Positions 43,891-59,535 of a stretch of 64,000 nt of DNA are shown one piece after another. A program made the position numbers and the translations under genes. How positions within the stretch are numbered: the first letter of the stretch is position 1; each line of letters opens with the position of its first letter. The notes beneath the pieces were generated by a model that worked only from the letters and a program-made list of their open reading frames with translations, was not told the origin of the DNA and did not search any database. Source of the DNA: Arthrobacter sp. U41 (GTDB taxonomy: Bacteria > Actinomycetota > Actinomycetes > Actinomycetales > Micrococcaceae); the NCBI RefSeq assembly GCF_001750145.1, contig NZ_CP015732.1, positions 2,170,001 to 2,234,000 on the forward strand, in the 5' to 3' direction.

Positions 43891-43911
43891 TGTCCCGTCT
43901 TGCCGGTCGGC

Positions 43912-44250: not shown

Positions 44251-44275
44251 TGTCGTTTTTCGAAGTCGTCTGCAC
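44251..44275 (+). repeat. left terminal inverted repeat of the Tn402-like element
   Basis: Begins TGTCGTTTTTCGAAGTCG and ends TCTGCAC. Matches the right end (57944-57968, reverse complement) except at four positions. Directly preceded by target-duplication copy CCTGA. Confidence 0.9.
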
Positions 44276-44300
44276 TGGCATTCGCGGTAGCCCGAGGGTT

Positions 44301-44398
44301 GTGCAGACGGGTTTGAACACGCGTTTGTTCAAACCCGCCTGCACAAAAGGCATTCTGTCTCAAAGCCGTCTGCACTACCTTTAACTATGGCTTTGAGG
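44301..44398. repeat. subterminal repeats (candidate transposase-binding sites)
   Basis: 44301-44344 is an inverted repeat with 19-bp arms and one mismatch (GTGCAGACGGGTTTGAAC against GTTCAAACCCGCCTGCAC). CAAAGCCGTCTGCAC (44361-44375) is a further copy of the CGTCTGCAC end motif, with GGCTTTG near 44389 as its inverted partner. Repeated end-motif copies are typical of TniA-binding sites. Confidence 0.65.
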
Positions 44399-44420
44399 CG
44401 CCTGCACCGTCGTTACCGGC

Positions 44421-46085
44421 ATGACTGACGAGGAACCGCCGATCGTTGAGCGTGGCCTGCTGGCCATGTCCGATTCGGAGTGGGATGAGGCAGTGCGACA
44501 GGCTGCGGTGATTGCTCCCTTGGCTGCGTCGGATGTTGTCGGGCGGGGGGCAGTCAATGATGCTGCCACGCTGCTGGGTGTGTCGCATCGGCAGGTTTAC
44601 GTGCTGATCGACCGGTACAGGCGCGGCACCGGCAGAGTCACGGATCTGCTTCCTGGCCGATCGGGGGGCGGCCGCGGAGGGGGCCGTCTGACGCCACCGG
44701 TGGAAGCGGTGATCGACGGGCTGATCCGCAAGCGCTATCTGAAGCGGCAGAAGCTCTCCCTGGCGGTGGTTCACCGTGACATCGTCCGCGCGTGCACGGA
44801 GGAGGGATTGCCTGCCCCGTCGCGAAGTACTGTTGCCCGCCGCGTCGCTGAATTGCATCCAACGACCGTCGCCCGCCGTCGGGAAGGCGCGGACGCGGCC
44901 CGTCCGCTGCCGTCGGCCGGAGGTATCGTTCCGGAAATCTCTGCCCCGTTGGAACAGGTCCAGATCGATCACACCGTGATTGATCTGGTCATCGTGGACG
45001 AGCGTGATCGACAACCAGTCGGCCGCCCGTATCTGACCGCGGCCATCGACGTTTACAGCCGCTGCCTGGTCGGCATGGTGGTCACTCTTGAGCCCCCATC
45101 GGCAGTTTCCGTCGGGCTCTGCCTGGCCCACGTGTGCAGCGACAAGCGTCCGTGGCTGGAGGGCTTGGGGATTGGAGGGGACTGGCCGATGAGCGGCAAA
45201 CCGCGGCTGCTGTACCTGGATAACGCGTCCGAATTCAAGAGTGAGGCCCTGCGCCGCGGCTGCGAACAGCACGGTATACAACTGGACTACCGACCCCTGG
45301 GGCGGCCGCACTACGGCGGCATTGTGGAGCGGGTGATCGGCACGGTCATGGCGCAGATCCATGAACTCCCTGGGACGACGTTCTCCAATCCCGTGGAACG
45401 ACGAACCTATGATTCGGAGAAGACTGCCGCATTGACGTTGAATGAGCTGGAGCGATGGCTGGCCCTGGCTGTGGTTTCCTATCACGGCAGCATCCATAGC
45501 GGCCTGGCCCAGACACCTGCCGCACGCTGGGATCAGGGCATCACCGAATCCGGGAAACCGCCGGTGGTCACCAGCCCCACGGCGTTTCTGGTGGACTTCC
45601 TGCCGGTGCTCCGCCGCAAGCTCGGACGCACCGGTTTCGTCATCGATCACGTGCACTACTTCGCTAACGTGCTCAAGCCCTGGATCGCCCGGCGGGACCG
45701 GTTGGAGCGGTTTGTCATCCGTCGGGATCCTCGTGACATCAGCAGGATCTGGGTGCTGGACCCGGAGGGCAACAACTACGTTGAAGTCCCGTACCGGACC
45801 CTGTCGAATCCTGCGGTGACACTGTGGGAACACCGCCAGGCCGTAGCGCGGCTGCGCGAGCAGGGGCGTGCGCAGGTCAACGAGCAGGAGCTGTTCCGCA
45901 TGATCGGACAGATGCGTGAGATCGCCAGCACCGCGCAGCGCGATACCCGGCGGTCGCGCAGGGATCGGGAGCGCCGGAGCCAGCTGAAATCCGGGCACAA
46001 TCTCAATGTTTTGAAACCGCCGCGGGACGGGATGGCCGGCGATTCTCCGCCGGCCGCGCCGTTTGATGACATCGAGGAGTGGTAG
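44421..46085 (+). CDS. tniA: TniA-family DDE transposase
   Basis: 554 aa. A helix-turn-helix N-terminus (AATLLGVSHRQVYVLIDRY and a second at QKLSLAVVHRDIVRACTEEG) precedes a retroviral-integrase-like core: first Asp in VQIDHTVIDL (about residue 182), second in LYLDNASEFKSE (about 266), Glu in GGIVERVIGTV (about 301), with the DDE spacing 84/35. A C-terminal Mu-like domain ends with a basic tail. It catalyses DNA cleavage and joining of the element's ends. tniB begins 3 nt after its stop in the ancestral arrangement. Confidence 0.92.
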   Translation: MTDEEPPIVERGLLAMSDSEWDEAVRQAAVIAPLAASDVVGRGAVNDAATLLGVSHRQVYVLIDRYRRGTGRVTDLLPGRSGGGRGGGRLTPPVEAVIDGLIRKRYLKRQKLSLAVVHRDIVRACTEEGLPAPSRSTVARRVAELHPTTVARRREGADAARPLPSAGGIVPEISAPLEQVQIDHTVIDLVIVDERDRQPVGRPYLTAAIDVYSRCLVGMVVTLEPPSAVSVGLCLAHVCSDKRPWLEGLGIGGDWPMSGKPRLLYLDNASEFKSEALRRGCEQHGIQLDYRPLGRPHYGGIVERVIGTVMAQIHELPGTTFSNPVERRTYDSEKTAALTLNELERWLALAVVSYHGSIHSGLAQTPAARWDQGITESGKPPVVTSPTAFLVDFLPVLRRKLGRTGFVIDHVHYFANVLKPWIARRDRLERFVIRRDPRDISRIWVLDPEGNNYVEVPYRTLSNPAVTLWEHRQAVARLREQGRAQVNEQELFRMIGQMREIASTAQRDTRRSRRDRERRSQLKSGHNLNVLKPPRDGMAGDSPPAAPFDDIEEW

Positions 46086-46087
46086 CT

Positions 46088-46101
46088 GTGGATGAATATC
46101 C
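46088..46101 (+). pseudogene. detached first codons of tniB
   Basis: GTG GAT GAA TAT CC directly after the tniA stop are the first codons of tniB. The ISL3 element follows at 46102. Included to mark the interrupted gene (46088-48379). Confidence 0.75.
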
Positions 46102-47476
46102 GGCTCTCCTGACGTAAGTGTGGGTCAGGGTTTGCGTGTTATGAGGCATGGGTAGCCCGGTAGATTTGGGAGTTCTCACACTGTCCAAATTTCGGAGCTA
46201 CCCATGCGTGCTACTACTCTACTCAACGGCGTCTTGAATCTGGCCGGGGTCCGGGTTGTTGACGTTGATCCTGGCGCCGGGGGTCCGCTGCTGGTGCGGG
46301 TGGCGTTGAAGGCCCGCAAGCGCCTGGACTGCCCGCACTGCAGCTACTCAACGATGGCCGGGTATGACACCCGGTGGGCGGAATCGTCGTGGCGGCATCT
46401 GGATTTCGCCGGCAGGGTCCTGGTGCTCACAATGCTCCGCCGGCGGCTGGTCTGCCCCAGCCACGGCGTCGTGGTGCAGGGCGTGCCGTTCGCCCGGCCC
46501 GGCTCCCGGTTCAGCACGGAATTTGAGGACATGATCGCCTGGCTGGTCACCCGTGCGGACAAGACCACGGTGTCCACCTTCGCCCGGATAGCGTGGCGGA
46601 CCGTCGGGGCGATCTGTGAACGCGTCGTGGCCGAACAACTCGATGAGAGCCGCTTCGAAGGCCTGGTCAATATCGGCGTGGATGAGATTTCCTGGCGCAA
46701 ACACCACCGCTACCTGACCCTCGTCTCGGACCACGCCACCTCGAAGATCGTCTGGGGCGCACCGGGAAAGAACGCGGCGACACTGGATGGATTCTTCAAG
46801 GAGATCGGACCGGTGAACACGGCGGCGATAGAGGCCGTCAGCATGGACATGGGCCCGGCTTTTGCCAAGTCCGTGAAGACCAACGCACCCGGCGCGGTCA
46901 TCTGCTACGACCCGTTCCACGTCATCCAGGTCGCCACCAACGCGCTGGAAGCCTTCCGCCGTTCCATCTGGCAACGGACCCGTGAGCTGCCCGATCAGGA
47001 CATCGCGAAGAAGTTCAAAGGAACCCGCTGGGTGCTGCTGAAAAACCCGCAGAACCTCACCGAAAAACAACAAGCCACCCTGGCCGGGCTCGAACGCACC
47101 GGAGGGCTGCTCTGGGACGCCTACCAGCTCAAGGAATCCCTCCGGGAGGTCTTCGCCGGCGACCTCAACCCCGATGACGTGATGGAGATGATCACCACCT
47201 GGTGCGACCTCGCCGCCAAATCCAACATCCGCGAGTTCGCCAGGGCCGCCGCCACGATCCGATCCCACACCCAAGGGATCCACGCAGCAGTCACCAGGAA
47301 ACTCTCCAACGGCCGCCACGAAGGACTGAACAACAAGATCCGCACCATGACCCGCAGATCCTACGGATTCCACACCCCCGAAGCCGCCCTCGCCCTGATC
47401 ATGCTCGCCTGCGGACCCGTCGAAATCAAACTCCCATACCAGACATAACCGAACCCACATTCACGTCAGGAGAGCC
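46102..47476 (+). mobile_element. ISL3-family insertion sequence inside tniB
   Basis: 1375 bp. Terminal inverted repeats GGCTCTCCTGACGTAAGTGT... (left) and the same with GTGAATGT (right) at 46102 and 47476. An exact 8-bp duplication GAATATCC flanks it (46094-46101 and 47477-47484), as expected for ISL3. It carries one complete transposase gene. It separates tniB's ancestral start from the rest of the gene. Confidence 0.9.
46204..47448 (+). CDS. ISL3-family transposase
   Basis: 414 aa. Zinc-binding N-terminal CPHCSYSTMAGYDTR region (C..C) and a CPSHGVV second cysteine pair, then a helix-turn-helix-like FARIAWRTVGAICERVVAEQ, and a DDE core: first Asp in GVDEISWRKHHRYLT (about residue 159), second in VSMDMGPAFAKS (about 218), Glu in NGRHEGLNNKIRTMTRRSYG (about 378). 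Ends at 47448, 28 nt before the IS right end. It is intact. Confidence 0.92.
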   Translation: MRATTLLNGVLNLAGVRVVDVDPGAGGPLLVRVALKARKRLDCPHCSYSTMAGYDTRWAESSWRHLDFAGRVLVLTMLRRRLVCPSHGVVVQGVPFARPGSRFSTEFEDMIAWLVTRADKTTVSTFARIAWRTVGAICERVVAEQLDESRFEGLVNIGVDEISWRKHHRYLTLVSDHATSKIVWGAPGKNAATLDGFFKEIGPVNTAAIEAVSMDMGPAFAKSVKTNAPGAVICYDPFHVIQVATNALEAFRRSIWQRTRELPDQDIAKKFKGTRWVLLKNPQNLTEKQQATLAGLERTGGLLWDAYQLKESLREVFAGDLNPDDVMEMITTWCDLAAKSNIREFARAAATIRSHTQGIHAAVTRKLSNGRHEGLNNKIRTMTRRSYGFHTPEAALALIMLACGPVEIKLPYQT

Positions 47477-47485
47477 GAATATCCT

Positions 47486-48379
47486 TTGGAGGACCTGTCC
47501 CATCTCCAGGACTCCGCACGGGAAACAGCACGGTTGCCGGGGCCGGAACGGACCCAGCGGATCCGTGCCGACCGATGGATCGGCTACCCCCGCGCCCAGG
47601 AAGCCCTCGCCCGGCTCCAGACCCTTTACGAGTGGCCGGTCAGGCAGCGCATGCCCAACCTGTTGCTGGTCGGGCCGACCAACAACGGCAAGTCAATGAT
47701 CATCGAAAAATTCCGGCGCCGGCATCCATTAGTTCCCGGACCCGACCGGGAACAGATCCCGGTGCTCAGCGTGCAGATGCCCTCCGATCCCTCCGTCGCC
47801 CGCTTCTACGCCGCGTTATTGGCGGCAACGGGGGCTCCCGTCCAACCGCGCCAGCGGCTGGCCGAACTCGAACGGTTAGCCGTGTTCCTGCTGCGCGAGG
47901 TCGGGGTGCGGATTCTGGTGATTGACGAACTGCATAACGTGCTGGCAGGGCGGGAGAGCGGCCGCCGGGAGTTCCTGAACCTGCTGCGCTTCCTGGGAAA
48001 CGAACTGCGGATCCCCCTGGTAGGGGTCGGAACCCGGGAGGCGTACCTGGCCATCCGCTCCGATGACCAGCTCGAGAACAGGTTTGAGCCCATGACCCTG
48101 CCCTTATGGGAGGTCAACACCGACCTGTTGTCCCTGCTCGCCAGCTTCGCGTCATCCTTCCCGCTACGCCAGCGCTCGGATCTGGCCACCGAGGATATGG
48201 CCCGCTACCTGCTCACCCGCAGCGAAGGGACCATCGGCGAACTGACCATGCTGCTCACCGAGGCAGCCGTGGCGGCCATAGACAGCGGCGAGGAATCCAT
48301 CAACCACCGGACGCTGACCCTGGCAAGCTACGACGGTCCCGCTGCCCGGCGCCGTAAGTTCGAACGCGAACTGATGTGA
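47486..48379 (+). CDS. tniB: TniB-family AAA ATPase (start displaced by the ISL3 insertion)
   Basis: 297 aa as now read from TTG 47486. Walker A VGPTNNGKSMIIEKF (about residues 66-80), Walker B RILVIDELHNVLAG (about 145), sensor region GVGTREAYLAI; the target-capture/regulatory ATPase of TniABQ systems. Deleting the IS and one GAATATCC gives GTG 46088 followed by DEYPLEDLS, so the native start lay 3 nt after tniA stop and its first four codons now sit upstream of the IS. TTG could still allow synthesis, but with no clear ribosome-binding site. tniQ overlaps its stop by 4 nt. Confidence 0.85.
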   Translation: MEDLSHLQDSARETARLPGPERTQRIRADRWIGYPRAQEALARLQTLYEWPVRQRMPNLLLVGPTNNGKSMIIEKFRRRHPLVPGPDREQIPVLSVQMPSDPSVARFYAALLAATGAPVQPRQRLAELERLAVFLLREVGVRILVIDELHNVLAGRESGRREFLNLLRFLGNELRIPLVGVGTREAYLAIRSDDQLENRFEPMTLPLWEVNTDLLSLLASFASSFPLRQRSDLATEDMARYLLTRSEGTIGELTMLLTEAAVAAIDSGEESINHRTLTLASYDGPAARRRKFERELM

Positions 48380-49014
48380 TGCCCCCGCCGCGCTGGCCCC
48401 TGCACCCGGCCCCCGCAGAGGCCGAGGCACTGTCCTCCTGGCTGAACCGGCTGGCCGGCACCTACCGGATGGACACCTCCGCGCTCCTGGAGCACGGGCT
48501 GGGCCAAGGAAGAATCCAGGACCGGCAACTCGACGAGAACCCACCGGCCACTCTGCTGACGGAACTGGCCAGGTGCAGCGGCGTCGGCCGGGAACTGCCA
48601 CTCATGCTGAGCTGTCCGCGGCACGGCCGCCGCATCGAAACCTACGAAGGCCTGCCCCCGGACTACCTGCGTTGGACCTCAGCGACCTCTGACCCGCCCT
48701 CGACCCGGGACGCAGTCACACTCATGGACCGGCGTACCTGGCAGGCAATAACGACAGGATCAGTAGACCTGCCCCGCCGCCGCGTTCACGCAGGCATCTG
48801 GTTCCGGCTCCTGCGCACCCTACTGGACGAGCTCTCAACCGCCCAAGGACGATACGGGCGGCAGTTGGCAGAGGTCCGCCTTGTCTGGGAGTACTGCGGT
48901 CACCCGTTTCGGGCAGGCATGCATGCTTGGCGCCCGTTCGAGAACCTGCACTGGGAGAAGCAAAAGCAACTGCTCGAAGCAGCCGCCGCCGGGGAAAAGC
49001 TCATCTCCCGGTAG
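48376..49014 (+). CDS. tniQ: compact TniQ-family target-selection protein
   Basis: 212 aa from GTG 48376 (or ATG 48379). The N-terminal PAEAEALSSWLNRLAGTYRMD and a single remaining Cys-His pair SCPRHGRR, followed by LPPDYLRWT, mark the TniQ/TnsD N-terminal domain. Family members are usually ~400 aa with a four-cysteine zinc finger; this is about half that and the second cysteine pair was not seen. Probably a short TniQ, possibly truncated. Overlaps tniB by 4 nt, so expressed with it. Confidence 0.75.
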   Translation: MMPPPRWPLHPAPAEAEALSSWLNRLAGTYRMDTSALLEHGLGQGRIQDRQLDENPPATLLTELARCSGVGRELPLMLSCPRHGRRIETYEGLPPDYLRWTSATSDPPSTRDAVTLMDRRTWQAITTGSVDLPRRRVHAGIWFRLLRTLLDELSTAQGRYGRQLAEVRLVWEYCGHPFRAGMHAWRPFENLHWEKQKQLLEAAAAGEKLISR

Positions 49015-49135
49015 ACGCCCACGTAGGCCCGATCGTTGGCTGCGCGCCGTCCCACCGTGTCCGGTGGTGCTGCTTCTGTCATGGATTTGGAACGATCTCG
49101 CCGGCACTGGTCGTATTCGTCGACGTGACGTGTTC

Positions 49136-49756
49136 CTAGTAGATGACGGTGCCGGTGGTCGCCACAGTGGTGCCGGAAATGGCGTTGCGGCCGCTGACCT
49201 CGAGCTGGATTCCTGTCCGCTGCAGCGGTGTCTCCAGGGCCGTGGATAGGTCCGGAATGACCCTGGTGTTGATCCTGTGGAGGACGTCCTGGATGTCGGC
49301 GCGGTTGGAAACCGTGACTTTCATTGTGAGATCCGGTTCCATGGCGGTGCCGCGCAGCAGCGCCGAGGAACCCACAACTCCGGGAAGGGTATTGATCTGG
49401 TTTTCCACCGCGGAGCCCAGCACCGAGGCTTCACACAGCGTGGTTCCGGAGGCGGGGTCCTGATGCAGCCGGTACCTGTCGGCGGGATTCCTTCGTGGAA
49501 TCTGTGCCAGGATCCACAACAACCCCAGGGCGCCCATGAGAACCCCGGCCACCAGGACAATGGCCGTAACATACGCGGGCCCGAAGGCAGTGTGCAGGTC
49601 CCCTGTCACGACGGGGCCCTCTGCAGCCACAGTTGCGGGGTTCATGGCGTGCAGCGTTCCGCTGGCGACCAGCAGTATCAGGACGCCGCAGGCCAGGGCG
49701 AGAATGCCAAGGATGGCCAGCCAGGTGCGGTTCAGCGCTCCGGCGTGTTGTCGCAT
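49136..49756 (-). CDS. AmaP-like membrane anchor of the Asp23 module
   Basis: 206 aa. Two membrane segments (WLAILGILALACGVLILLVA and VTAIVLVAGVLMGALGLLWI) separated by a short loop, then a C-terminal soluble domain beginning about TTLCEASVLGSAVENQ with beta-alpha pattern TMKVTVSNRADIQDVLHRI. That is the AmaP architecture (two TMs, cytosolic domain) which anchors Asp23 to the membrane in Staphylococcus. Last gene of the minus-strand part; ends 120 nt from tniQ. Confidence 0.75.
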   Translation of the reverse strand: MRQHAGALNRTWLAILGILALACGVLILLVASGTLHAMNPATVAAEGPVVTGDLHTAFGPAYVTAIVLVAGVLMGALGLLWILAQIPRRNPADRYRLHQDPASGTTLCEASVLGSAVENQINTLPGVVGSSALLRGTAMEPDLTMKVTVSNRADIQDVLHRINTRVIPDLSTALETPLQRTGIQLEVSGRNAISGTTVATTGTVIY

Positions 49757-49798
49757 GGGGTGCCTTCTTTCCGGAGTGCGGGAGGATGGTTGCCGCGG

Positions 49799-50380
49799 TC
49801 ATTCCCTGGACCGGACGGACGCGGTGACCTTTGGGACCGGGTTGAGCCCGGTACCGGCCAGTTGTTCCCTGACCACGGCAATGACACGCCCGCGCAGCTC
49901 CCCTGTTTCGTGCAGAGCCGTGGTCACGTTCAGGTGGACTGCGCGGGCCGAGGCCGTGGCCGATGCTGAACGGACGCCGTCGACGAGTTCACAGTGCGCC
50001 GCCGCGTACCGCGCCACGGCCCGCCGCGTCATGACTATCTCGTGCGCGCCCGCCACAGGCACTTGCCCCCCGTCCTCGGGCGCCTGCAGACGCAAGGCGT
50101 TAAAGCGGCCCGGAACCAGTGCCGCCGCCAGCAGGACGGCTCCCACGACCGCCGCCGCAGCCCCCACGGCCCAGACTCCCGGATCGTTCCAGGTCAAACC
50201 GCTCAGCCAGTCCCGGGGGCCGGCCAGATACACCGGCCACGAACCCGTGACCAGCCGGGCCACTGCCGCCCACACCAGTGCCACGCCGGCGGCCAGAAGC
50301 AGCGTTCCCAGGATCAGGGCAGGAACAGCCCGGCTGGGACGGTGCCGCAGGGGTGTGGCTTTCCCATCGTGCCGGCTCAT
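49799..50380 (-). CDS. DUF6286-like membrane protein of the Asp23 module
   Basis: 193 aa. Two hydrophobic segments (AVPALILGTLLLAAGVALVWAAVA and VWAVGAAAAVVGAVLLAAALV) and a C-terminal Asp23-like soluble region (AVHLNVTTALHETGELRGRVIAVVREQL). Its ATG overlaps the stop of the upstream Asp23 gene as ATGA, and it precedes the AmaP-like gene. Family named from the order of genes in actinobacterial Asp23 operons; function unknown. Confidence 0.7.
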   Translation of the reverse strand: MSRHDGKATPLRHRPSRAVPALILGTLLLAAGVALVWAAVARLVTGSWPVYLAGPRDWLSGLTWNDPGVWAVGAAAAVVGAVLLAAALVPGRFNALRLQAPEDGGQVPVAGAHEIVMTRRAVARYAAAHCELVDGVRSASATASARAVHLNVTTALHETGELRGRVIAVVREQLAGTGLNPVPKVTASVRSRE

Positions 50381-50772
50381 AACAGCCTCCGGCGGCCGGT
50401 GGTTTCATCGGCCGGTTTCAGCCAGGACACTGTGATGTCGATCTGGCGGACCTCCACACCGGTCAGGGCGTTGACGCGTTCGCTGATCCGGCGCCGCAGC
50501 TGTTCGGTCACCTGGCGCAGCGGTACCGGGTAAAGCAGCCCTATTTCAACGCTGAGCACGGCAATATTGCCTGCCAGCTCCACCGTGACTTTGGGCCGGG
50601 CGGAAAAGTCCGAATGTGCTCCGATGCCCAGGAACCCTCCGGAGGACCCGCCGGCAAAGGACTCTTCGCTCGCGACCTGACTGGCGATCTTCTCCACCAC
50701 CTTCCGGTCAAGGACGGTGCGCCCCCGCGAATCCAGGTCCCGGGAGCCGGCAGGTGCTGCGGGAGTATTCAT
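50377..50772 (-). CDS. Asp23/Gls24 family envelope-stress protein
   Basis: 131 aa from ATG 50772; the longer frame runs through the small DUF2273 gene. LDRKVVEKIASQVASEE at the N-terminus and the core KVTVELAGNIAVLSVEIGLLYPVPLRQ, VTEQLRRRISERVNALTGVEV match Asp23 (DUF322). Asp23 proteins form a membrane-associated network in envelope stress. Coupled by ATGA overlap to the genes on both sides. Confidence 0.85.
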   Translation of the reverse strand: MNTPAAPAGSRDLDSRGRTVLDRKVVEKIASQVASEESFAGGSSGGFLGIGAHSDFSARPKVTVELAGNIAVLSVEIGLLYPVPLRQVTEQLRRRISERVNALTGVEVRQIDITVSWLKPADETTGRRRLL

Positions 50773-50948
50773 CGGCTGGATGCTTTGCCGAACAGTGCCT
50801 GCAGATCCAGTTTCCCTTCCGCAATACGGCCCACCACCAGCCCGATCAGACCAAAGAGGAGCACTGTCACCAGGGCTGTAAAACCTCCGAAGGCCAAAAC
50901 GATTCCTAATACCAGACCGACTGCCAGACACCATCGTGTAGTGGACAT
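50769..50948 (-). CDS. 59-aa DUF2273-like membrane protein
   Basis: Read on the minus strand from ATG 50948 with GGAGCG just upstream to TGA 50769-50771. A helix-rich peptide starting MSTTRWCLAVGLVLGIVLAF, with a second hydrophobic stretch (ALVTVLLFGLIGLVVG) and a charged end IAEGKLDLQALFG. This two-helix, ~60-aa form fits DUF2273, found between Asp23 and AmaP genes in stress operons. It overlaps the next Asp23 start (ATGA). Confidence 0.75.
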   Translation of the reverse strand: MSTTRWCLAVGLVLGIVLAFGGFTALVTVLLFGLIGLVVGRIAEGKLDLQALFGKASSR

Positions 50949-51005
50949 GCGGCGCTCCTTCCAAATCGGTTACCGCCCGACAACGGGGCGGAGTGGGTGA
51001 GGTGG

Positions 51006-51536
51006 TTACTCCAGAGGCTTCCTGGCGTCCTCTTCGGGCCGCTCATCCTCGGGCAGATGAACATCGGTGACGTTGACGTTCACTTCCAGCACCTCCAGGC
51101 CGGTTGCGCGCTCCACTGACTGGATGACATTGCGCCGGATACCCTGGCTTACCTCGACAATGGACGTTCCGTACTCGACGACGATGCTCAAGTCGATGGC
51201 GGTCTGGCGTTCGCCCTTTTCCACGCTCACACCGCCGCTGACATTCGTCTGGGAACCGGGAATGCGCTCGGTCATCGCGCCGAACGCGCGCCGGGCAGCA
51301 CTGCCCATCGCATACACGCCGGGAACCTCACGCGTGGCCATGCCTGCCAGCTTCTGAACCACGGTTTCCTCAATGGTGGTATCCCCCCGGTCCGTGTGCA
51401 GCAGGTCAGTGCTGCGGCGCGACTCACGCGACTCAGCCGGGGCGTTCCGCTTCTGCTCCTCCTGGGTTGCCACCATGCCTCCGGACTTTCCTGGGAGCTG
51501 CGGGGCTTCTGTCACGGGAACCATCTCCTCAATCAA
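51006..51536 (-). CDS. Asp23/Gls24 family envelope-stress protein with N-terminal extension
   Basis: 176 aa from TTG 51536; ATG 51524 and others inside are possible because no start has an ideal ribosome-binding site. A ~50-aa polar, probably disordered N-terminus precedes the Asp23 core: ETVVQKLAGMATREVPGVYAMG, AIDLSIVVEYGTSIVEVSQGI, RATGLEVLEVNVNVTDV. First gene of the minus-strand stress operon and divergent from the sigma-factor gene; 193 bp separates them. Confidence 0.85.
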   Translation of the reverse strand: MIEEMVPVTEAPQLPGKSGGMVATQEEQKRNAPAESRESRRSTDLLHTDRGDTTIEETVVQKLAGMATREVPGVYAMGSAARRAFGAMTERIPGSQTNVSGGVSVEKGERQTAIDLSIVVEYGTSIVEVSQGIRRNVIQSVERATGLEVLEVNVNVTDVHLPEDERPEEDARKPLE

Positions 51537-51729
51537 CCGATGTGATTTTGCCTACATGGTTAAAGACGCACGTCACCGCCAAACGTCACGCGGAAAGGCA
51601 AACTGCTTTGTCCCTGTTTCTCCCCGCACCGGCCATTCCCATTGCCGCCCGCGTCTGAAAATATTGGTCCTAAGCCCCGGAACCCGGGTGGTGCGGTTCG
51701 GGGGCAAAAGGGGATGGCGGTGACGATGG
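51537..51729. promoter_or_regulatory. divergent intergenic region of the Asp23/sigma-factor module
   Basis: 193 bp separating the divergent Asp23 and sigma-factor starts. Both promoters must lie here. I do not see a clear -35/-10 or a shared palindrome; an alternative sigma factor could recognise non-consensus boxes. Confidence 0.4.
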
Positions 51730-52329
51730 ATGAGCGTGAACCGGTTGCCCCTGACCCGGCCGGAGGATCTGGACGAGGCGACCGTCGTCGCCCGGGCCCA
51801 GGACGGCAACTTGGACGCCTTCGAATACCTCGTCGAGGCGTATCAGGGCAGACTTTTCCGTCTCGCTTTCCGGATGCTCCATGACCGGGGAGAGGCCGAA
51901 GACGTCGTGCAGGACACCCTGATGGCCTGCTGGAGAAAGCTGCCGCTGCTGACAAGCGTTCAGGCTTTCAGCGGGTGGCTGTACCAGATGGCCACCAACC
52001 GTTGCCTGGACAGTCTGCGTCGACGGTCCAGTCAGGCGGAGGTCGTCCAGGAACCGGTAACTCTGCAAACAACCGCGGATTCCTTCATCAGACCGGGAAC
52101 CGGAGACGATCCCGCCCGCGAAGCGGAAATCTCCTGCGAGATCGATGGCCTGGCCGCAGCGTTGCTGACCCTCCCGCCCGGGCAGCGAGCCTGCTGGCTC
52201 CTGCGGGAAATCCACGAACGCAGCTACGCTGAAATAGCGGCAACGCTGAAGGTCAGTGAACCGACGGTCAGAGGCCGCCTCGCCAGAGCACGCGCACAAC
52301 TCGCGGAAAGGATGAGTCAATGGCAATAG
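51730..52329 (+). CDS. ECF-like RNA polymerase sigma factor
   Basis: 199 aa, ATG 51730. Region 2: ARAQDGNLDAFEYLVEAYQGRLFRLAFRMLHDRGEAEDVVQD. Region 4: LTLPPGQRACWLLREIHERSYAEIAATLKVSEPTVRGRLARARAQLA. Two-region layout without sigma 1.1 or 3 makes it ECF-type. Immediately followed (10-nt overlap) by a protein with a zinc-binding anti-sigma motif fused to an Asp23-like domain, so the pair is probably a sigma/anti-sigma unit controlling the module. Confidence 0.88.
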   Translation: MSVNRLPLTRPEDLDEATVVARAQDGNLDAFEYLVEAYQGRLFRLAFRMLHDRGEAEDVVQDTLMACWRKLPLLTSVQAFSGWLYQMATNRCLDSLRRRSSQAEVVQEPVTLQTTADSFIRPGTGDDPAREAEISCEIDGLAAALLTLPPGQRACWLLREIHERSYAEIAATLKVSEPTVRGRLARARAQLAERMSQWQ

Positions 52330-52904
52330 ACGAAACCATCCCCCGCCTGGGCTGTGGGCGCAGCATCGACGAGGTCTGGGCGACCATCAACCAGCCTCCC
52401 AGCGCCCATGAAAACGGCTGCGGCCACTGCCGGACGGCCCGGGCCAGCCTGGCGAAGCTCGCGAAAGCCGCCCGCACGCTTCGGGACAACGATGCAGAAG
52501 ATGCCTCCCTGCAGCCGCAGCACGCCGTCAAGGACACCATCATGAACCTGGCCCGCGCCGAAGTCCGGAGGGGCAGCCGGCTGCCCGTCTACCGGTCTGG
52601 CCAGGGTGGCATTGCGATCAGCGAACAAGCCATCACTTCAGTGATCTGGTTCGGCGCCGATGCCCTTCCGGGAGTACGGGGCCGTCGCTGCCGCGTCCAT
52701 CCTGACCCGGATAACGCGGAGGACCCCCGCCCGGCCGGGACCGCCGACATCCTGGTTGACCTTCGAATCGCCGTGGCCTCCGGCACCGACATCCCCGGAA
52801 CCGCCGAGCTGCTGCGTCAGCGGATCATCGGCATGATCACAGCACACGTCGGAGTCAACGCCGGAGCCGTCAACATCACCGTGGAGGATTTCTACGATGT
52901 CTGA
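52320..52904 (+). CDS. putative ZAS anti-sigma factor fused to an Asp23-like domain
   Basis: 194 aa; start 52320 overlaps the sigma-factor gene by 10 nt. The N-terminus contains HENGCGHC (about residues 30-37), the HxxxCxxC pattern of zinc-associated anti-sigma domains, in a helical context. The C-terminal half (AGTADILVDLRIAVASGTDI and RIIGMITAHVGVNAGAVNITVEDF) has the Asp23-like strand-helix-strand pattern. A fusion of an anti-sigma zinc finger and Asp23 would link envelope or protein-network state directly to the neighbouring sigma factor (inference). Family assignment of the second domain is moderate. Confidence 0.7.
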   Translation: MAIDETIPRLGCGRSIDEVWATINQPPSAHENGCGHCRTARASLAKLAKAARTLRDNDAEDASLQPQHAVKDTIMNLARAEVRRGSRLPVYRSGQGGIAISEQAITSVIWFGADALPGVRGRRCRVHPDPDNAEDPRPAGTADILVDLRIAVASGTDIPGTAELLRQRIIGMITAHVGVNAGAVNITVEDFYDV

Positions 52905-53310
52905 GCGTCCTCTCGAGGCCCGGCTGATCAGCAGTCACCTTATTGCCGGCCTTGCCGCCCGCACCGCCCTCGATACACCAGGCGTCCTCCGGCTCGAACC
53001 GACCCTGAAAAACCTTCTCACCCACCTGGGAACAGGAACAATCCAAAATCTCCGCAGGACAGACACCCGGACCACTCCCGCCCGGCACGACGGGGTCTTT
53101 GTCACCCTCCACAACGGCATCGCCGACGTCCAGCTCGACATCGCCACCGATATCGCCTTCGCAGCCCTGAACGTCGCCCAAGCCGTGCGGGAGCAGATCT
53201 CCCGGACCATCAGCCACACCGGGCTCATCCCCGGGCGCATCGACATCTCGATCCTGGCCATCGAGCACCCACCCACCGCCACAGCGGCCCGCGCTCCCAG
53301 GCCCCTCTGA
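52897..53310 (+). CDS. Asp23-like protein
   Basis: 137 aa; overlaps the preceding gene by 8 nt. Hydrophilic N-terminus, then an Asp23-like core: GVFVTLHNGIADVQLDIATDIAF, NVAQAVREQISRTISHTGL, RIDISILAIEH. No membrane segment. Third gene of the plus-strand arm. Degenerate compared with the two minus-strand copies, so the family call is less certain. Confidence 0.7.
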   Translation: MSERPLEARLISSHLIAGLAARTALDTPGVLRLEPTLKNLLTHLGTGTIQNLRRTDTRTTPARHDGVFVTLHNGIADVQLDIATDIAFAALNVAQAVREQISRTISHTGLIPGRIDISILAIEHPPTATAARAPRPL

Positions 53311-53428
53311 TCCAGAACACCAGCATGCCGGCCACCAAACCATCATCGTTTACGGACTCGTTTAACGATTCCGAACCACGGCACCGCGCCCCGGACTCCC
53401 GGGCGGGACCCATCGGCATGGAACCGGC

Positions 53429-53656
53429 ATGAACTCTGAACCCAACAACCAGGAAAACCCGACCGAAGGCATCCCGGACGGAACCGGCCGGCACCAAGGC
53501 AAGACATCCTGGGCAACGGCCATCCTCCTCCCACCGGCGCTGCTGCTCTGCGGCGTCTGGCTGCTGCTGATTGCCAACTACCTTCTCGCCGCCGTATTCT
53601 TCTTCGCCGCCATGGCCTCTCTGGCCTACTTCGCGGCCAGCCGCCGACGCGGATGA
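53429..53656 (+). CDS. small membrane protein of the cargo module
   Basis: 75 aa from ATG 53429. A polar N-terminus of ~25 residues precedes two tightly packed hydrophobic segments (ATAILLPPALLLCGVWLLLI and LLAAVFFFAAMASLAYFAA) and ends in RRRG. It follows the Asp23-like gene by 118 nt. No family recognised; a stress-module membrane accessory is a guess. Confidence 0.5.
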   Translation: MNSEPNNQENPTEGIPDGTGRHQGKTSWATAILLPPALLLCGVWLLLIANYLLAAVFFFAAMASLAYFAASRRRG

Positions 53657-53712
53657 ACTAGAAGCATCCCTCCGGGCGGCCGGTGCGGCGGATCCCGTCC
53701 GAGGTCCGGTGT

Positions 53713-53832
53713 TTGGTGAGCAGCAACAGTGCGGCTTTGGAGCGGCACCTGCTCGAGTACTTCCCGGCGCTGGAGCAGGCCTTTGACTACGCCGAGGAAC
53801 GAGGGGCTGGACAGGCTGGAGCGGACACGTAG
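53713..53832 (+). pseudogene. short IS110-family transposase remnant
   Basis: A 39-codon frame ending in TAG reads SNSAALERHLLEYFPALE then QAFDYAEERG, similar to the EYFPALERAFDYSKS-like segment of IS110 transposases. No start and no conserved catalytic parts are present, so at most a relic. The remaining ~180 nt to 54014 show nothing else. Confidence 0.4.
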
Positions 53833-54014
53833 AATCCGAAGGAACAGCCAAAAACGGTCGTAGACACAAAGATCGGACACGGCGGAGCCCTGCGACGTCG
53901 GGGCCGGGTCCAACAGCCGGCCGCGCCAGCGGAGGCCCGATAACTGGTGGAGCGCAACGGAATCCGATGCGTTGATGCTCTGTTTGGCGCTCTAACATCA
54001 GAAGGGAGACCGAG

Positions 54015-54290
54015 ATGGGCCTCAGAAGTCTCTTTCAGCGAAAAGCAGTAACCACCGCATGTGTGAGCCCCGTTCGGGCGGCCACCGCCGGCCAAGACCA
54101 GCTTTTGTCGCCGGAACGCCAGGAGGAGCTGCAGGCCGCCTGGGTTGAACTGACTGAGGCAGCCAGAGGCTCAAAGGTGACCAGCTTCCACGCCTGCACC
54201 CGGAATGGCCGACCCTGGACGGAAGATCCGGCCGCGGTCAGAGCCGTCGCCGCCACACTCCGTGAATTCCCGGCCTCGGACAGCCAATAG
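54015..54290 (+). CDS. hypothetical protein
   Basis: 91 aa, ATG 54015 with GGGAG about 6 nt upstream. Starts GLRSLFQRKAVTTACVSP and has a C-terminal ELTEAARGSKVTSFHACTRNGRPWTE, then AVRAVAATLREF. No family recognised. A longer antisense frame (minus) covers the region but lacks a ribosome-binding site. Confidence 0.55.
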   Translation: MGLRSLFQRKAVTTACVSPVRAATAGQDQLLSPERQEELQAAWVELTEAARGSKVTSFHACTRNGRPWTEDPAAVRAVAATLREFPASDSQ

Positions 54291-54638
54291 GCCGCATTTC
54301 CCCCGCATTGTTCAAGCAGGGCGAGCATGCGCTCCTCTTCGGCCCGGTCTGTGCCCCATGCCGATAACAGTAACGCTGGAAAGGATCCGCACCGGAGAAC
54401 CGTCGCCGGCCCCAAGTCTCAGGTGGTAGCCGCTTGGAAGGCTTCGGCGATTCCGACCCAGTATCGTGCCGTGGGAGCGTACCTGATACCCATTCTCGAT
54501 GGCCCAACGAGCGGATCGGCCCGGGGCGGAGACTCTGCCCGCGCGGGGCGTCTTTGCCGCGGGCCCGGCGGTCCTGTGGTCTCCGCGTCCGGGGGCGGGT
54601 TGGCAGCCCGACAGTGTGCAGACGATTTCGAACATTCC
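54291..54638. other. non-coding stretch to the left of the internal transposon end
   Basis: About 350 nt with no convincing gene on either strand. It holds an extra copy of the end motif (GTGCAGACGATTTCGAAC at 54616-54633), 23 bp before the internal terminal repeat. Confidence 0.45.
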
Positions 54639-54663
54639 GTGCAGACGACTTCGAAAAATGACA
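54639..54663 (-). repeat. internal right-end terminal repeat of the Tn402-like element
   Basis: GTGCAGACGACTTCGAAAAA then TGACA, the same end motif as the outer right end (57944-57968). The upstream half-copy at 54616 and its 23-bp spacing repeat those of the outer end (57921). The 5 bases after TGACA are CCGAC, not CCTGA, so this end was not the one used in the last insertion. Confidence 0.85.
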
Positions 54664-54756
54664 CCGACCCTACCGGCGACACGCCGCGAAATCCATGTCG
54701 AAAACCCGCGCCGGAAATCAACGTCGGCAAACCCTGGGTATGGGTATTATCGACAC

Positions 54757-55347
54757 ATGTTGATCGGATATGCGCGCGTCTCCACCGCCGACCAAAACCC
54801 CGTCCACCAAACGGACGCCCTCGCCCGCGCCGGCGTCGACCCGGCCAACATTTACCTCGACCACGCCAGCGGTGCCAAAGCCAGCAGGCCCGAGCTCGAC
54901 AAGGCCCTCGCCTCCTCCAACCGGGCCGGTGACCAGCTCGTCATCACCCGCCTCGACAGACTCGGCCGGTCGGTACTCCACCTCGTCACCCTCGGCGCAG
55001 CTCTCCGGGAACGTGGTGTGGGATTGCGTGTCCTCGAGCAGGGCATCGACACCACGACCGCGGAAGGGCGGGCAATGTTCGGGATGCTCTCCGTCCTCGC
55101 CGAACTCCAACGAGAACTCATCATCGCCAACACCCGGGACGGCCTCGCGGCCGCCCGCGCCCGCGGACGAACCGGAGGAAGACGCCCCAAACTCACCCCC
55201 GATCAGGCCCACCATGCCCAACAGCTCTACGACGCCGGGGACCACACCGTTCAGCGCATCGCCGATCTGCTTCAGGTCCCGCGCTCCACGATCTACGGCC
55301 ACCTCAACAAATCAAGCATCGGGCGACGCCCCACCCCAGCGCCGTGA
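54757..55347 (+). CDS. serine recombinase (resolvase/invertase family, TniR-like)
   Basis: 196 aa from ATG 54757. Catalytic Ser in ARVSTADQNPVHQTDAL (about residue 10), RLDRLGRSVLHL (Arg and Ser helix), MLSVLAELQRELIIANTRDG, and the C-terminal helix-turn-helix AQQLYDAGDHTVQRIADLLQVP, RSTIYGHL. Such enzymes resolve cointegrates of Tn402/Tn3 elements. It lies to the right of the internal end, in the outer segment of the element. The ~90 nt before it, with GGGTATGGGTATTATCGACAC, may be a res site. Confidence 0.9.
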   Translation: MLIGYARVSTADQNPVHQTDALARAGVDPANIYLDHASGAKASRPELDKALASSNRAGDQLVITRLDRLGRSVLHLVTLGAALRERGVGLRVLEQGIDTTTAEGRAMFGMLSVLAELQRELIIANTRDGLAAARARGRTGGRRPKLTPDQAHHAQQLYDAGDHTVQRIADLLQVPRSTIYGHLNKSSIGRRPTPAP

Positions 55348-55420
55348 CCCGGCGTAACAGCGGTGCCGACCAGAACCTCTACTACCTGGCCCCAACGGCT
55401 TAGCGTGACTTTCCCGAGCA

Positions 55421-55720
55421 TTGGTCCTCAAGCCCCTCGTCTTCGGGATGTTCGCCGCCCTCGCCGAGTTCGAACGCGAACTCATCTCCGAACGCACGAT
55501 CGCAGGCCTCGCCGCCGCCCGTGCCCGCGGACGGAACGGAGGCCGCCCCTACAAGATGACGCCGGCGAAACTCCGGCTCGCGGTGGCGTCCATGGGCAAG
55601 CCAGGAACCAAAGTCAGCGACCTCTGCACCGAACTCGGCATCACCCGCCAAACCCTCTACCGGCACGTCTCACCCACAGGGGAGCTGCGGCCCGACGGTG
55701 AGAAACTTCTCTCGCGATAG
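55421..55720 (+). pseudogene. serine recombinase gene fragment (C-terminal part)
   Basis: 99-codon frame. FGMFAALAEFERELISERTIAG, AAARARGRNGGRPYKMTP and the C-terminal helix-turn-helix (LCTELGITRQTLYRHV) equal the second half of the recombinase just upstream; the catalytic N-terminus is missing. A relic from duplication or an older recombinase. Confidence 0.75.
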
Positions 55721-56016
55721 CAGTAGACCCGCCCGTACCAGCAGCGGCCGGCACCACCGCCCTGGCCAGCGCATCCGGCCTCGCCGGCGTTCCCTTTCAC
55801 GCCCCGTCACCGGTCGTTTCAGCGGACGGGGGTTACGGGACGGTCGACTTTCCTGTGAATTCCGGAATTTCTTATGTAGCAGGTCAGGGCGGGGTGCGCT
55901 CCGCTAGCCGACCGGCTTGCGGGATGGCAGGAAGGCTCTATAAGGGACACCCCAAAAGGTGCTGTATATGATGACGCACTTATGCAGAGCTGGCGTTCCG
56001 GCTGCGGAGCTTTGCC
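55721..56016. other. segment without a supported gene
   Basis: About 300 nt between recombinase relic and the small membrane gene. A frame from 55729 (VDPPVPAAAG...) to about 55970 is open but has no start codon context or recognisable domain. Nothing else seen. Confidence 0.4.
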
Positions 56017-56193
56017 TTATTCTTCTCCACTCGTCAAGCCCACGGCCAACCAGGCAGCTGCAAAAGCTAGTGCAAGGACCGGCTTCCATATGTCAGCACC
56101 TTCGATGAGCCCACTGATACCCAGCCATCCAAATACCAGGGCTCCGAGGATCGCAACGATCAGAGTTGTTCGTGGCGCCTCGTACAGCCTCAA
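56017..56193 (-). CDS. small hydrophobic protein, two membrane segments
   Basis: 58 aa on the minus strand from TTG 56193 to TAA 56017. Reads LRLYEAPRTTLIVAILGAL, then GWLGISGLIEGADIWKPVLA and a second hydrophobic stretch ending GLTSGEE. Two helices are clear. No ribosome-binding site is obvious, so expression is uncertain; a longer frame upstream has no better start. A hairpin (56216) lies just upstream. Confidence 0.45.
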   Translation of the reverse strand: MRLYEAPRTTLIVAILGALVFGWLGISGLIEGADIWKPVLALAFAAAWLAVGLTSGEE

Positions 56194-56215
56194 CGAGATG
56201 GCGCCGTCGACGTCA

Positions 56216-56242
56216 GAGAACCGGGGCCTGGCCCCGGTTCTC
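56216..56242 (-). terminator. strong hairpin after the secreted-protein gene
   Basis: GAGAACCGGGGCC and GGCCCCGGTTCTC are exact complements around a single T. It lies 32 nt after the secreted-protein stop (minus strand) but lacks a U-run, so it may work as an attenuating or rho-assisted terminator. Confidence 0.5.
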
Positions 56243-56273
56243 CGTCTTGCGCGAAACTACTGGCGTGCGATGG

Positions 56274-56801
56274 TCACGGCCCGGTGATCGTGATGTAGTC
56301 GCCGGTGAAGCCGGCGAAGTGCAGCGTGTAGGTGAAGCTGCTGAGCGTGATGGTTCCTCCGAGCAGTTCCTTGGTCCAGTTGCCGTTGGGGCAGGTCGCT
56401 CGGGCCACGAAGTCTGCCGCCGTCGGGACGGGCGACGAGCTCAGCGCTGTTACCCTGAGCCTGCCGTTCTTGGGTGCGAGGTCTCCGGTGGTCGCCGGCA
56501 CGGTCGTGACCTGAGACTTGACCTCGACGATCTGGCCACCGCGGTTGCGGCATTGGACCGTGGCCGTGTAAGTCGTGGACAAGGTTGCTTCGGCATTGGC
56601 GTTTCCGACGCCCGCCAATTCGAACGTGGTGCAGTCGACCTGGGTTGCTGTGACGCTACAGCCGATCGTTCCCGACTGAAGATGCGTGCCCGTCGGGGCG
56701 GCAGCGGGATCGATGGTGGTGGTGGCGGCCAGCGCCGATGTGGTGACGCCGAACAAGAGCATCGCCATGGCGGCGATGATCGCAAAAAATCGCTTATACA
56801 T
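56274..56801 (-). CDS. secreted hypothetical protein
   Basis: 175 aa. ATG 56801 with AGGAG 7 nt upstream. Signal peptide MYKRFFAIIAAMAMLLFGVT..SALA, cleavage after about residue 25. The mature part is Thr/Ala/Ser-rich beta-type with four cysteines (CSVTATQVDC, VQCRNRGG, ATCPNGNW) suggesting two disulfides. No family recognised; composition and the relatively low-GC flank suggest transfer. Lies in the outer part of the transposon. Confidence 0.7.
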   Translation of the reverse strand: MYKRFFAIIAAMAMLLFGVTTSALAATTTIDPAAAPTGTHLQSGTIGCSVTATQVDCTTFELAGVGNANAEATLSTTYTATVQCRNRGGQIVEVKSQVTTVPATTGDLAPKNGRLRVTALSSSPVPTAADFVARATCPNGNWTKELLGGTITLSSFTYTLHFAGFTGDYITITGP

Positions 56802-57297
56802 CTTTGTCTCCTGTAGCAAAAGTGGTAAGACTTGGCCTCCGCTAATCAGCGGGGAAAAGGACCCCCCAGTCAGTCCCAACAGTTGCTCGTCGGGATTTCT
56901 GCTCTCGCTATTCCCGGCCCTCCAAGAAGACACCTAACGGAACGAAACCACAAGGGAATTCAGTACTATCTCTTGATGCGAAGTCACGATTTACGGTCGC
57001 AGGAACGTGGCAACGGCAACACCTACGAAAAAGCCAGAGATTCAACGACCTCCTGCACGTGATCGCGAACGTTCGTGCTCAGATCGAACATGATCTTGAG
57101 ATGGGCTACTTCGAGCTTAAAACCTAATCGATCGCGCCGCACAGTCTTCGAGCCCTCGGGCATCGAACCTGCCCGTTGAGGGATCCTCTTGCGGACGCTC
57201 GTTAGGGGTCGCTTCGGGCAAAATGGCGATATGAAACAGTTCATGCGATCACTGGCAAACTGACATTCTCAGCGCCGTCGGTCCAGGGCGCCGAGTA
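56802..57297. other. gap region, no supported gene
   Basis: Roughly 500 nt, lower in GC than its surroundings. A plus-strand frame ending TAA at 57125-57127 (LRKSQRFNDLLHVIANVRAQ) is open for about 90 codons without a start, so it may be a C-terminal relic. At 57231 ATG (MKQFMRSLAN) lies in the wrong frame for the kinase at 57298. Confidence 0.4.
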
Positions 57298-57891
57298 GTG
57301 GCAGTCGACGGCGTGGATGGCAGTGGCAAGACATTCTTCGCCGCAAACCTGGCATTCGAGATCCAGAATCGACCCGTGATCGTCATCCACGCCGACGACT
57401 TTCTAAACCCCTCGCCCGTGAGGCATGCCAAGGGACGTGCTTCACCCGAAGGGTTCTGGGAGGATACCTACAACTACGCGGCCCTGCAGGATCGGTTGCT
57501 CGCGCCACTCGGCCCAAAGGGAGACGGCTGGTACTCGCCGGTTTGCTACGACGCAGTGACCGACCGAATGCCACAAGTGGAGGTCGTTCGCGCTCCATCG
57601 GATGCACTGGTCGTTGTCGAAGGCATGTTCCTGCACCGCGATGAACTCACCTCCTTCTGGGATGCGTCGGTATTCCTGGATGTTCCGTTCACCGAGACCG
57701 CGGCACGAATGGCAGTTCGGAACGGTAGCAACCCCGACCCTGAGCACCCAACGATGCGCCGGTACGTCGGCGGACAGCGCCTCTACTTCGACGCTGCACG
57801 ACCCTGGGAACGTGCCACGTTCGTCGTGGATAACTCGGATTTCACTTCACCGAAAGTCATCCGTCCCGACGAGGCTTCAACTGTCCGGTGA
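57298..57891 (+). CDS. uridine-kinase-like P-loop protein, probably N-terminally truncated
   Basis: 197 aa. Walker A GVDGSGKTFFA near the N-terminus, IVIHADDFLNPS (metal-binding acidic pair), ERATFVVDNSDF at the end; a uridine kinase-like phosphoribulokinase/kinase fold. The GTG start is poor. Upstream, ATG 57231 encodes MKQFMRSLAN, and removal of one T (near 57260) would join it to DILSAVGPGRRVVAVDG. So the start may be frameshifted. Probable phosphotransferase of a nucleoside or similar small alcohol. Confidence 0.7.
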   Translation: MAVDGVDGSGKTFFAANLAFEIQNRPVIVIHADDFLNPSPVRHAKGRASPEGFWEDTYNYAALQDRLLAPLGPKGDGWYSPVCYDAVTDRMPQVEVVRAPSDALVVVEGMFLHRDELTSFWDASVFLDVPFTETAARMAVRNGSNPDPEHPTMRRYVGGQRLYFDAARPWERATFVVDNSDFTSPKVIRPDEASTVR

Positions 57892-57943
57892 GGGTTCCTC
57901 ATACGGACTTGTAGAGGGCCGTGCAGGCGAGTGTGGACATTCC

Positions 57944-57968
57944 GTGCAGACGACTTCGGAAACTGACA
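57944..57968 (-). repeat. right terminal inverted repeat of the Tn402-like element
   Basis: GTGCAGACGACTTCGGAAAC then TGACA; reverse complement of the left end except four positions. A half-copy GTGCAGGCGAGTGTGGAC begins at 57921. Directly followed by duplication copy CCTGA. Confidence 0.9.
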
Positions 57969-59275: not shown

Positions 59276-59535
59276 TTGCTGGCGCCCGCGGTGAGGCCCT
59301 CGACGATCCGGCGCTGGAAGATCAGCACCATGATCACCAGCGGGACGGTGACGATCACGCCGGCGGCCATCTGCTCGCCGAAGGGCGCCTGGAATTCGGT
59401 GGCGCCGGTGAACTTGGAGATCGCGACCGTGGCGGTCTGGATCTTGGGATCGTTGATCATCGACAGCGCGATGATGAACTCGTTCCAGCTGTGGATGAAC
59501 GTCAGGATCGCGGTGGTGAAGCCCTCAGGATGGGC
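59272..59535 (-). pseudogene. C-terminal remnant of a sugar ABC permease (MalG-like)
   Basis: About 87 codons. HPEGFTTAILTFIHSWNEFI and IALSMINDPKIQTATVAISK followed by EFQAPFGEQMAAGVIVTVPL and QRRIVEGLTAGASK is the last third of a MalG-type permease. No upstream part exists: the frame is cut directly after the TAG of the lipid kinase gene. It overlaps the GH13 start, so it was the last transport gene before alpha-glucosidase in the original maltodextrin-type operon. A deletion junction. Confidence 0.8.

Follow-up and report, generated by a model that had tools for sequence, protein, structure and literature searches.

An Asp23/AmaP-type gene module with an ECF sigma factor inside a Tn402/Tn5053-like tni element of Arthrobacter sp. 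U41

Three described systems stand closest to the locus examined here. Asp23-family proteins have been studied in Staphylococcus aureus; the available part of that account describes what Asp23 does at the molecular level as still unclear (PMC6954212). The sigma factor groups ECF286 and ECF292 adjoin soluble Asp23-family proteins predicted to be anti-sigma factors, for which the accessible text states that experimental data are lacking (PMC8999054). The transposons of the Tn402/Tn5053 family, known as res site hunters, carry tniABQ-res-tniR between 25-bp repeats and nest in the res sites of carrier elements, and members with defective tni genes are presumably moved in trans, as outlined in the sections at hand of PMC7765201. 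We analysed a 64,000-nt window (C1:2170001-2234000) of the 4.79-Mb genome, in four contigs, of Arthrobacter sp. U41, a soil bacterium of the Arthrobacter group, and focused on a 4.5-kb gene module at window positions 49136-53656. Our preferred reading, held with moderate confidence, is that a res-site-hunting tni transposon captured the module, a horizontally mobile, self-contained envelope regulon, and carried it along when it inserted into an alpha-amylase-family gene. The element ends and their target duplication, the presence of the module, the differing neighbourhoods of its copies and the disagreement between module and core-gene identities can be read directly from the DNA.

The repeat finder paired the left terminal inverted repeat (TIR) of the element with two partners, one at 54639-54663 (96% complementary over 25 nt) and one at 57944-57968 (88%). 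A matching 5-bp duplication (CCTGA) flanks the outer pair but not the inner one, and we therefore take 44251-57968 as the transposed unit. A 5-bp target duplication is a trait of the Tn402/Tn5053 family. Both flanks of the unit (43910-44245 and 57987-59521) match a locus of genome G199 (L099) at 87-88%, at adjacent positions there (1165-1501 and 1505-3078), and the G199 homologue of the interrupted amylase-family open reading frame (ORF) is 89% identical and lies in an open frame of 885 residues. The genes tniA, tniB and tniQ are present in that order (Table 1). The initial annotation had placed the module inside a TniABQ element; the TIRs, the duplication, the tni profile matches and the adjacency of the flanks in L099 all agree with this placement, which slightly understated the case, since the ends can be defined to the base.

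Ten related tni copies, nine of them in other genomes and the tenth elsewhere in the host genome, have a similar organization. The order tniA-tniB-tniQ is found in all ten (with the tniA match of L096 in two pieces), and a resolvase gene (tniR) lies downstream in nine, the exception being L096. Seven copies have both ends in the fetched stretch, and four of these show an exact 5-bp duplication (TGCAT in G164, TCTAG in the second copy of the host, TCGAA in G202 and GCCTG in G158); those of G096, G146 and G184 do not. For L093, L096 and L097 one end only falls in the fetched stretch. At eight ends among the related copies the distance to a resolvase start is approximately 50-115 bp, which is what res site hunters would be expected to show. 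The likeness to Tn402/Tn5053 extends to the tniABQ-res-tniR order of the relatives, the 25-bp inverted repeats and the nesting at resolvase genes; the difference lies in the host, which belongs to the Arthrobacter group, and in the cargo, a putative envelope-stress module here and mercury resistance (mer) or integrons in the available text on that family (PMC7765201). In the host genome, the 25-bp element end occurs at 16 places on contigs C1-C4 at no more than two mismatches, and the reversed control pattern at none; six of the 16 are on C2 and C3, two on C4 being counted with the C1 remainder.

The module comprises eight genes and a 59-residue membrane ORF in two divergent arms. The left arm, read leftwards, encodes Asp23a, the 59-residue ORF, Asp23b, a DUF6286 protein and an AmaP-like protein. 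The right arm encodes an ECF sigma factor with regions 2 and 4, a 194-residue Asp23 protein with a Cys-His-Cys-Cys N-terminus, whose gene start overlaps the 3' end of the sigma gene, a 137-residue weak Asp23 protein and a 75-residue ORF, for which searches of Pfam (E<=1) and NCBIfam (E<=0.1) gave no match. The reading frames of all eight genes are open over the coordinates in Table 1. The ORF of the 194-residue protein scored slightly below the PF03780 cut-off of 28 bits; in the whole-genome search with that profile, the match scored 22.8 bits alone and 28.2 bits with its frame neighbours, and was there counted above the cut-off. The open frames and profile matches uphold the two-armed arrangement of Asp23, DUF6286, sigma and candidate anti-sigma genes proposed in the initial annotation, and profile searches did not place the Asp23-like genes and the sigma factor in unrelated families. 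For two of its labels the profile match is below the curated cut-off: the DUF2273 name of the 59-residue ORF follows from where the ORF lies, how small it is and the similar order of genes at the host core locus, and the AmaP name from a profile match at E 4.5e-12.

Table 1. Coordinates of the module, of the tni element that encloses it and of the interrupted gene (window positions).
Feature	Position	Strand	Evidence
Tn402/Tn5053-like (tni) element, 13.7 kb, damaged mosaic	44251..57968	.	25-bp terminal inverted repeats and 5-bp CCTGA duplication
Left target duplication copy CCTGA	44246..44250	.	Exact match to right copy
Right target duplication copy CCTGA	57969..57973	.	Exact match to left copy
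Left terminal inverted repeat	44251..44275	+	Repeat finder
Outer right terminal inverted repeat (plus 20-bp inner repeat)	57944..57968	-	Repeat finder
Mobile module, DNA homology block common to other genomes	49109..53652	.	80-94% identity; edges near outer gene ends
AmaP-like membrane protein	49136..49756	-	NCBIfam NF033218 46.0 bits, E 4.5e-12, below cut-off 55
DUF6286 membrane protein	49799..50380	-	PF19803 83.7 bits (cut-off 35)
Asp23-family protein b	50377..50772	-	PF03780 35 bits (cut-off 28)
59-residue membrane protein, DUF2273 position	50769..50948	-	PF10031 E 0.23 only; DUF2232 E 0.0059
Asp23-family protein a	51006..51536	-	PF03780 103 bits (cut-off 28)
ECF-like promoter GTGACG-N15-CGTCTT facing Asp23 arm	51563..51589	-	Conserved at <=1 mismatch
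ECF sigma factor	51730..52329	+	PF04542 67.2 bits, PF08281 52.5 bits, TIGR02937 101.5 bits (cut-off 42.9)
Candidate anti-sigma factor, 194 residues	52320..52904	+	ZAS-like C12...H30xxxC34xxC37 N-terminus and Asp23 domain, PF03780 26.8 bits
Weak Asp23-family protein c, 137 residues	52897..53310	+	PF03780 15.7 bits, below cut-off
75-residue ORF with hydrophobic stretch, part of conserved block	53429..53656	+	In most close copies homology extends to 53652
tniA transposase	44421..46085	+	Mu-transpos_C 40.9 bits, Mu I-gamma domain 22.8, rve 25.3 (rve below cut-off)
tniB	47486..48379	+	PF05621 250.6 bits
tniQ, shortened	48376..49014	+	PF06527 32.2 bits; comparison with relatives
Internal second right element end, from another tni element	54392..54663 (TIR 54639-54663)	-	82% identical over 273 bp to other end of same genome
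Foreign resolvase	54757..55347	+	PF00239 138 bits on longer frame 54499-55347
3' half of the element's native tniR	55436..55720	+	82-88% DNA identity to tniR of related elements
ISL3-family transposase between tniA and tniB	46204..47448	+	PF01610 229 bits
Alpha-amylase-family gene, interrupted by element	57899..59275	-	PF00128 324 bits; last codons of frame run into element end

The host also has a core Asp23 locus (C1:1714931-1717242, within the fetched stretch L005, C1:1709000-1722000), which encodes Asp23 (84.9 bits), a 60-residue ORF, a weak Asp23 protein (14.9 bits), DUF6286 (40.5 bits) and a 203-residue protein without a family match. Module and core locus are alike in the order Asp23, small membrane ORF, Asp23-like protein, DUF6286, further membrane protein. 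The core and module Asp23 proteins are 44% identical, and the window sigma factor has no match in the 13 kb around the core locus. By this comparison the element adds to the host a second, divergent Asp23 copy together with putative regulators. Like the S. aureus Asp23-AmaP system, as far as the available text describes it (PMC6954212), the module combines Asp23-family proteins and a putative AmaP-type membrane partner in one operon; unlike that system, it encodes a number of diverged Asp23 paralogues together with DUF6286 and an ECF sigma factor dedicated to it, and its AmaP match is below the curated cut-off. Likened by gene arrangement alone, the module also resembles ECF286 and ECF292 in having an ECF sigma gene beside a gene for an Asp23-family protein. 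It differs from them in the ZAS-like N-terminus of that protein, in the attached divergent Asp23/DUF6286/AmaP-like operon and in its location inside a transposon.

The module recurs in other genomes without one common setting. Its homology block matches five loci (L006, L007, L008, L010 and L011, the matches of L008 and L010 being slightly shorter), those of ISL-48, ISL-5, ISL-95, B6 (taken to be genomes G129, G130, G126 and G082) and A. hankyongi, and a partial DNA match in a sixth, Arthrobacter sp. ISL-72, is broken by a contig end. In the genus search the 194-residue protein had a match at E<=1e-5 in 71 of 206 genomes, and at no less than 42% identity in 21, the window's own included; two of the latter matches are partial (G127, at a contig end, and G082, without the first 42 residues). 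A blastn comparison outside the module revealed no common neighbourhood among the close copies, only scattered short matches at differing distances, and the largest flank match near the module was 182 bp, between G126 and ISL-72 in opposite orientation. The module edges are at or near the outer gene ends, with no common terminal sequence in the edge alignments. Given this lack of a common neighbourhood or terminal sequence, we regard the close-copy module as a discrete set of accessory genes that has no visible ends itself. The initial annotation had called such modules normally chromosomal, but the close copies did not point to any one chromosomal home. Some flanking DNA is common to the distant copies of G046, G164 and G111.

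Of 204 genomes of the genus, 203 have a core Asp23 gene, which allowed us to compare the module with its hosts. The genomes nearest to the host by core Asp23 protein are G140 (93%), G172 (92%), G046 (87%) and G164 (86%), and their module protein is only 49-54% identical to that of the window. The most similar full-length module proteins are those of G130 (91%) and G021 (89%), where core Asp23 is 75-76% identical. This disagreement between module and core-gene identities argues for horizontal transfer, and so for the mobility claimed in the initial annotation; the comparison is of two proteins' identities and not of trees, and the difference is large. The module seems to have reached the host from a distant relative. 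The four nearest genomes carry the 49-54% version of the module protein, which the host lacks; the flanks of two of these four entered the blastn comparison.

A second copy of the module is enclosed by element ends. In ISL-48, convergent 25-bp TIRs with inner repeats enclose 9.2 kb holding the module, and approximately 93 bp separate the left end from the start of a resolvase gene. Searches of 40 kb there for tniA, tniB and tniQ (E<=1e-4), and of the genome, which is 95% complete, for TniA and TniB (E<=1e-10), gave no match. Other ORFs of the ISL-48 unit (L064/L065) resemble, by eye only, MarR, DoxX-like, LUD-domain, MerR and glyoxalase genes. Ends at no more than three mismatches lie within 20 kb of the module in four of six close-copy genomes, compared with 0.18 expected if ends were evenly scattered (Poisson P 4e-5, which serves only as a guide, as mobile ends cluster and the 20-kb distance was chosen post hoc), and in none of eight distant-copy genomes. 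This count omitted G127 (contig end) and A. hankyongi (named locus only) from the close copies and G139, G073, G042 and G204 from the distant ones, and used rough values for the module ends of G096 and G172. Among these neighbouring ends, a pair around the module was seen for ISL-48 only, and the close copies of G153 and G082 have no end within 20 kb. On these data, transposon carriage of the module amounts to one firm case, that of the window, and one probable case, that of ISL-48.

The window element is a mosaic. Its tniQ lacks approximately 77 residues internally and has lost its 3' end at the start of foreign DNA, homology to relatives stopping near 48991. Of the native tniR only the 3' half is left, alongside a foreign resolvase, and the stretch between the tniQ remnant and this half holds the module, a second element end and the foreign resolvase. 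The internal end (54639-54663) has a counterpart in the same genome (C1:3158276-3158536; L082:8277-8537) and no matching target duplication. The foreign resolvase is 43-50% identical to the native tniR of relatives, and its start is approximately 94 bp from the internal end; that end thus adjoins a resolvase start, yet the whole element sits in an amylase-family gene. As the likeliest history, we infer that a TIR-bounded unit beside a resolvase, like the ISL-48 unit, joined into a resident tniABQ-res-tniR element, that the joining replaced the end of tniQ, the res region and the start of tniR, and that the composite then transposed via its outer ends. The reverse order, with the module entering the element after its insertion in the amylase-family gene, is conceivable but less likely.

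An ECF-like promoter faces the Asp23 arm. At no more than one mismatch, the pattern occurs once within the module in 12 of 12 genomes searched; the one other hit, on contig C4 of the host genome, is at chance level, since the reversed control gave two hits in the 12 genomes. The spacer has changed between the close and distant groups, and the hexamers are largely kept. Anti-sigma factors of the ZAS type carry an HxxxCxxC zinc motif and an upstream Cys, and some ZAS proteins sense redox. For the 194-residue protein, 20 of the 21 aligned sequences from other genomes retain residues C12, H30, C34 and C37; this alignment also contains the window protein itself (L012), and eight of the 30 fetched loci (L033-L038, L040 and L041; approximately 30-33% identity) were omitted, with wrong frames for at least most of them. 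The four residues are nearly invariant (at least 90%) among 54 sequences, an alignment that included 53 of 120 listed homologues (163 found). The structure model (mean pLDDT 75.9, pTM 0.52) has helices at residues 16-21, 29-33, 35-59 and 68-82, and the Asp23 part after them forms an alpha/beta domain.

These features suggest how the module might be regulated and what it might do. In the resting cell, the 194-residue protein, with its ZAS-like helices and Asp23 domain, would hold the ECF sigma factor. Either the Asp23 domain would sense the state of an Asp23 lattice under the membrane, or the zinc site would sense thiol/oxidant or metal state. Under envelope stress the protein would release the sigma factor, which would transcribe the divergent operon (Asp23, membrane ORF, Asp23, DUF6286, AmaP) from the single conserved GTGACG-N15-CGTCTT promoter. 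The predicted outcome is a second Asp23/AmaP membrane scaffold beside the core one.

Several observations weigh against the reading of a self-contained regulon mobilized by a tni transposon, and those that concern mobility also bear on the rival idea that recombination brought the module, as ordinary accessory DNA, into a composite of broken tni elements, with the transposon not a regular mobiliser in the past or present. TniB (E<=1e-10) is found in 33 of 206 genomes and lies within 10 kb of the module in 0 of 20 other carriers (the contigs of G127 and G140 end nearby), and the module is in none of the fetched stretches of the nine related tni elements (three not read to the right end); a tie between the module and tniABQ in other genomes, as sought from the initial annotation, did not emerge. 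The ISL-48 unit has no exact duplication (GTGGA and GCGTG), and the fifth-nearest genome by core Asp23, G136, gave no module match in the genus search. The window element looks damaged and may be unable to move alone. The damage, the absence of most close copies from visible tni elements and a homology block that stops close to gene boundaries and shows no terminal sequence all speak for the accessory-DNA explanation. We nevertheless consider it unlikely, because the outer TIRs and exact duplication mark the composite as having transposed whole (unless the module entered later), the flanks are adjacent in L099 and ISL-48 provides a second TIR-bounded copy.

On the regulatory side, the 12 of 12 promoter matches represent conservation and not independent repetition, since the pattern was drawn from the same homologous loci, and no promoter was identified before the sigma gene. 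The self-regulation claimed in the initial annotation therefore stands as a prediction from the conserved promoter facing the Asp23 arm. The B6 homologue (G082; L019) lacks the whole ZAS-like segment in the presence of a sigma gene, and if the anti-sigma reading is true, the sigma factor of B6 should be free. The 194-residue protein has no Pfam zf-HC2 match at E<=1, and its fold search covered mainly the C-terminal domain. An hhalign comparison with 17 zf-HC2 proteins of this and related genomes kept HxxxCxxC in register, but with a weak score (E 0.0027, probability 11%), so we use the label ZAS-like and not ZAS; the set took 17 of 18 places, one below the cut-off being omitted, with N-terminal rows with few gaps only, and the C-terminal control gave no alignment (E 0.47). 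The same in-register alignment, with the conserved C12, H30, C34 and C37, would fit a protein that is mainly a zinc/thiol sensor of the ZAS kind, its Asp23 domain serving as an anchor or oligomerisation part, and a regulon that answers oxidants or metals and not envelope stress. This alternative seems rather improbable to us, though a little less so than the accessory-DNA explanation, in view of the weak zf-HC2 profile score, the absence of the metal site in G082 and the facing arm, whose genes are all Asp23 or membrane genes. That the gene families are unrelated and the module a chance resemblance is extremely improbable: the 137-residue protein and the 59-residue ORF do not reach Pfam cut-offs, nor does the AmaP match reach its NCBIfam cut-off, but the scores for Asp23 (103 and 35 bits), DUF6286 (83.7 bits), sigma (101.5 bits) and AmaP (E 4.5e-12), and a gene order similar to that of the host core operon, argue strongly otherwise.

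Beyond the preferred reading of a regulon picked up by the tni transposon, a broader view can be put forward tentatively, as a possibility with the balance somewhat against it: a transmissible membrane-scaffold regulon, in which the sigma factor, an Asp23-type anti-sigma factor and the structural Asp23/AmaP genes travel together on res-site-hunting tni ends and add an independently controlled second lattice to any Arthrobacter-group bacterium they enter. The initial annotation's claim of a new kind of transposon cargo is fair but narrow. Transposon carriage is new, but the sigma/Asp23 pairing was already known from ECF286 and ECF292 (PMC8999054, available text) and the transposon family is known, so what is new is the combination. 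An envelope-stress module would extend the range of cargo seen on tni elements. As a naturally portable set with one promoter, one sigma factor and one candidate anti-sigma factor, the module offers a small system for asking whether Asp23 proteins sense or form a membrane lattice; for the ECF groups that adjoin Asp23 proteins, the accessible text of PMC8999054 gives no measured mechanism.

The second tni element of the host genome (C1:3121209-3128314; L081), with its exact duplication, has a long tniQ frame and a native tniR and lies approximately 112 bp from another resolvase. With its long tniQ, it might act in trans on the window element. In the window element, the ISL3 element has 48-nt inverted repeats (46096-46143 and 47435-47482, 79% complementary), and its insertion (46096-47482) in the short tniA-tniB gap may alter tniB expression. 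Other cargo of the window element includes a 219-residue protein without a Pfam match (56274-56933) and a protein with weak P-loop/kinase matches only (57298-57891).

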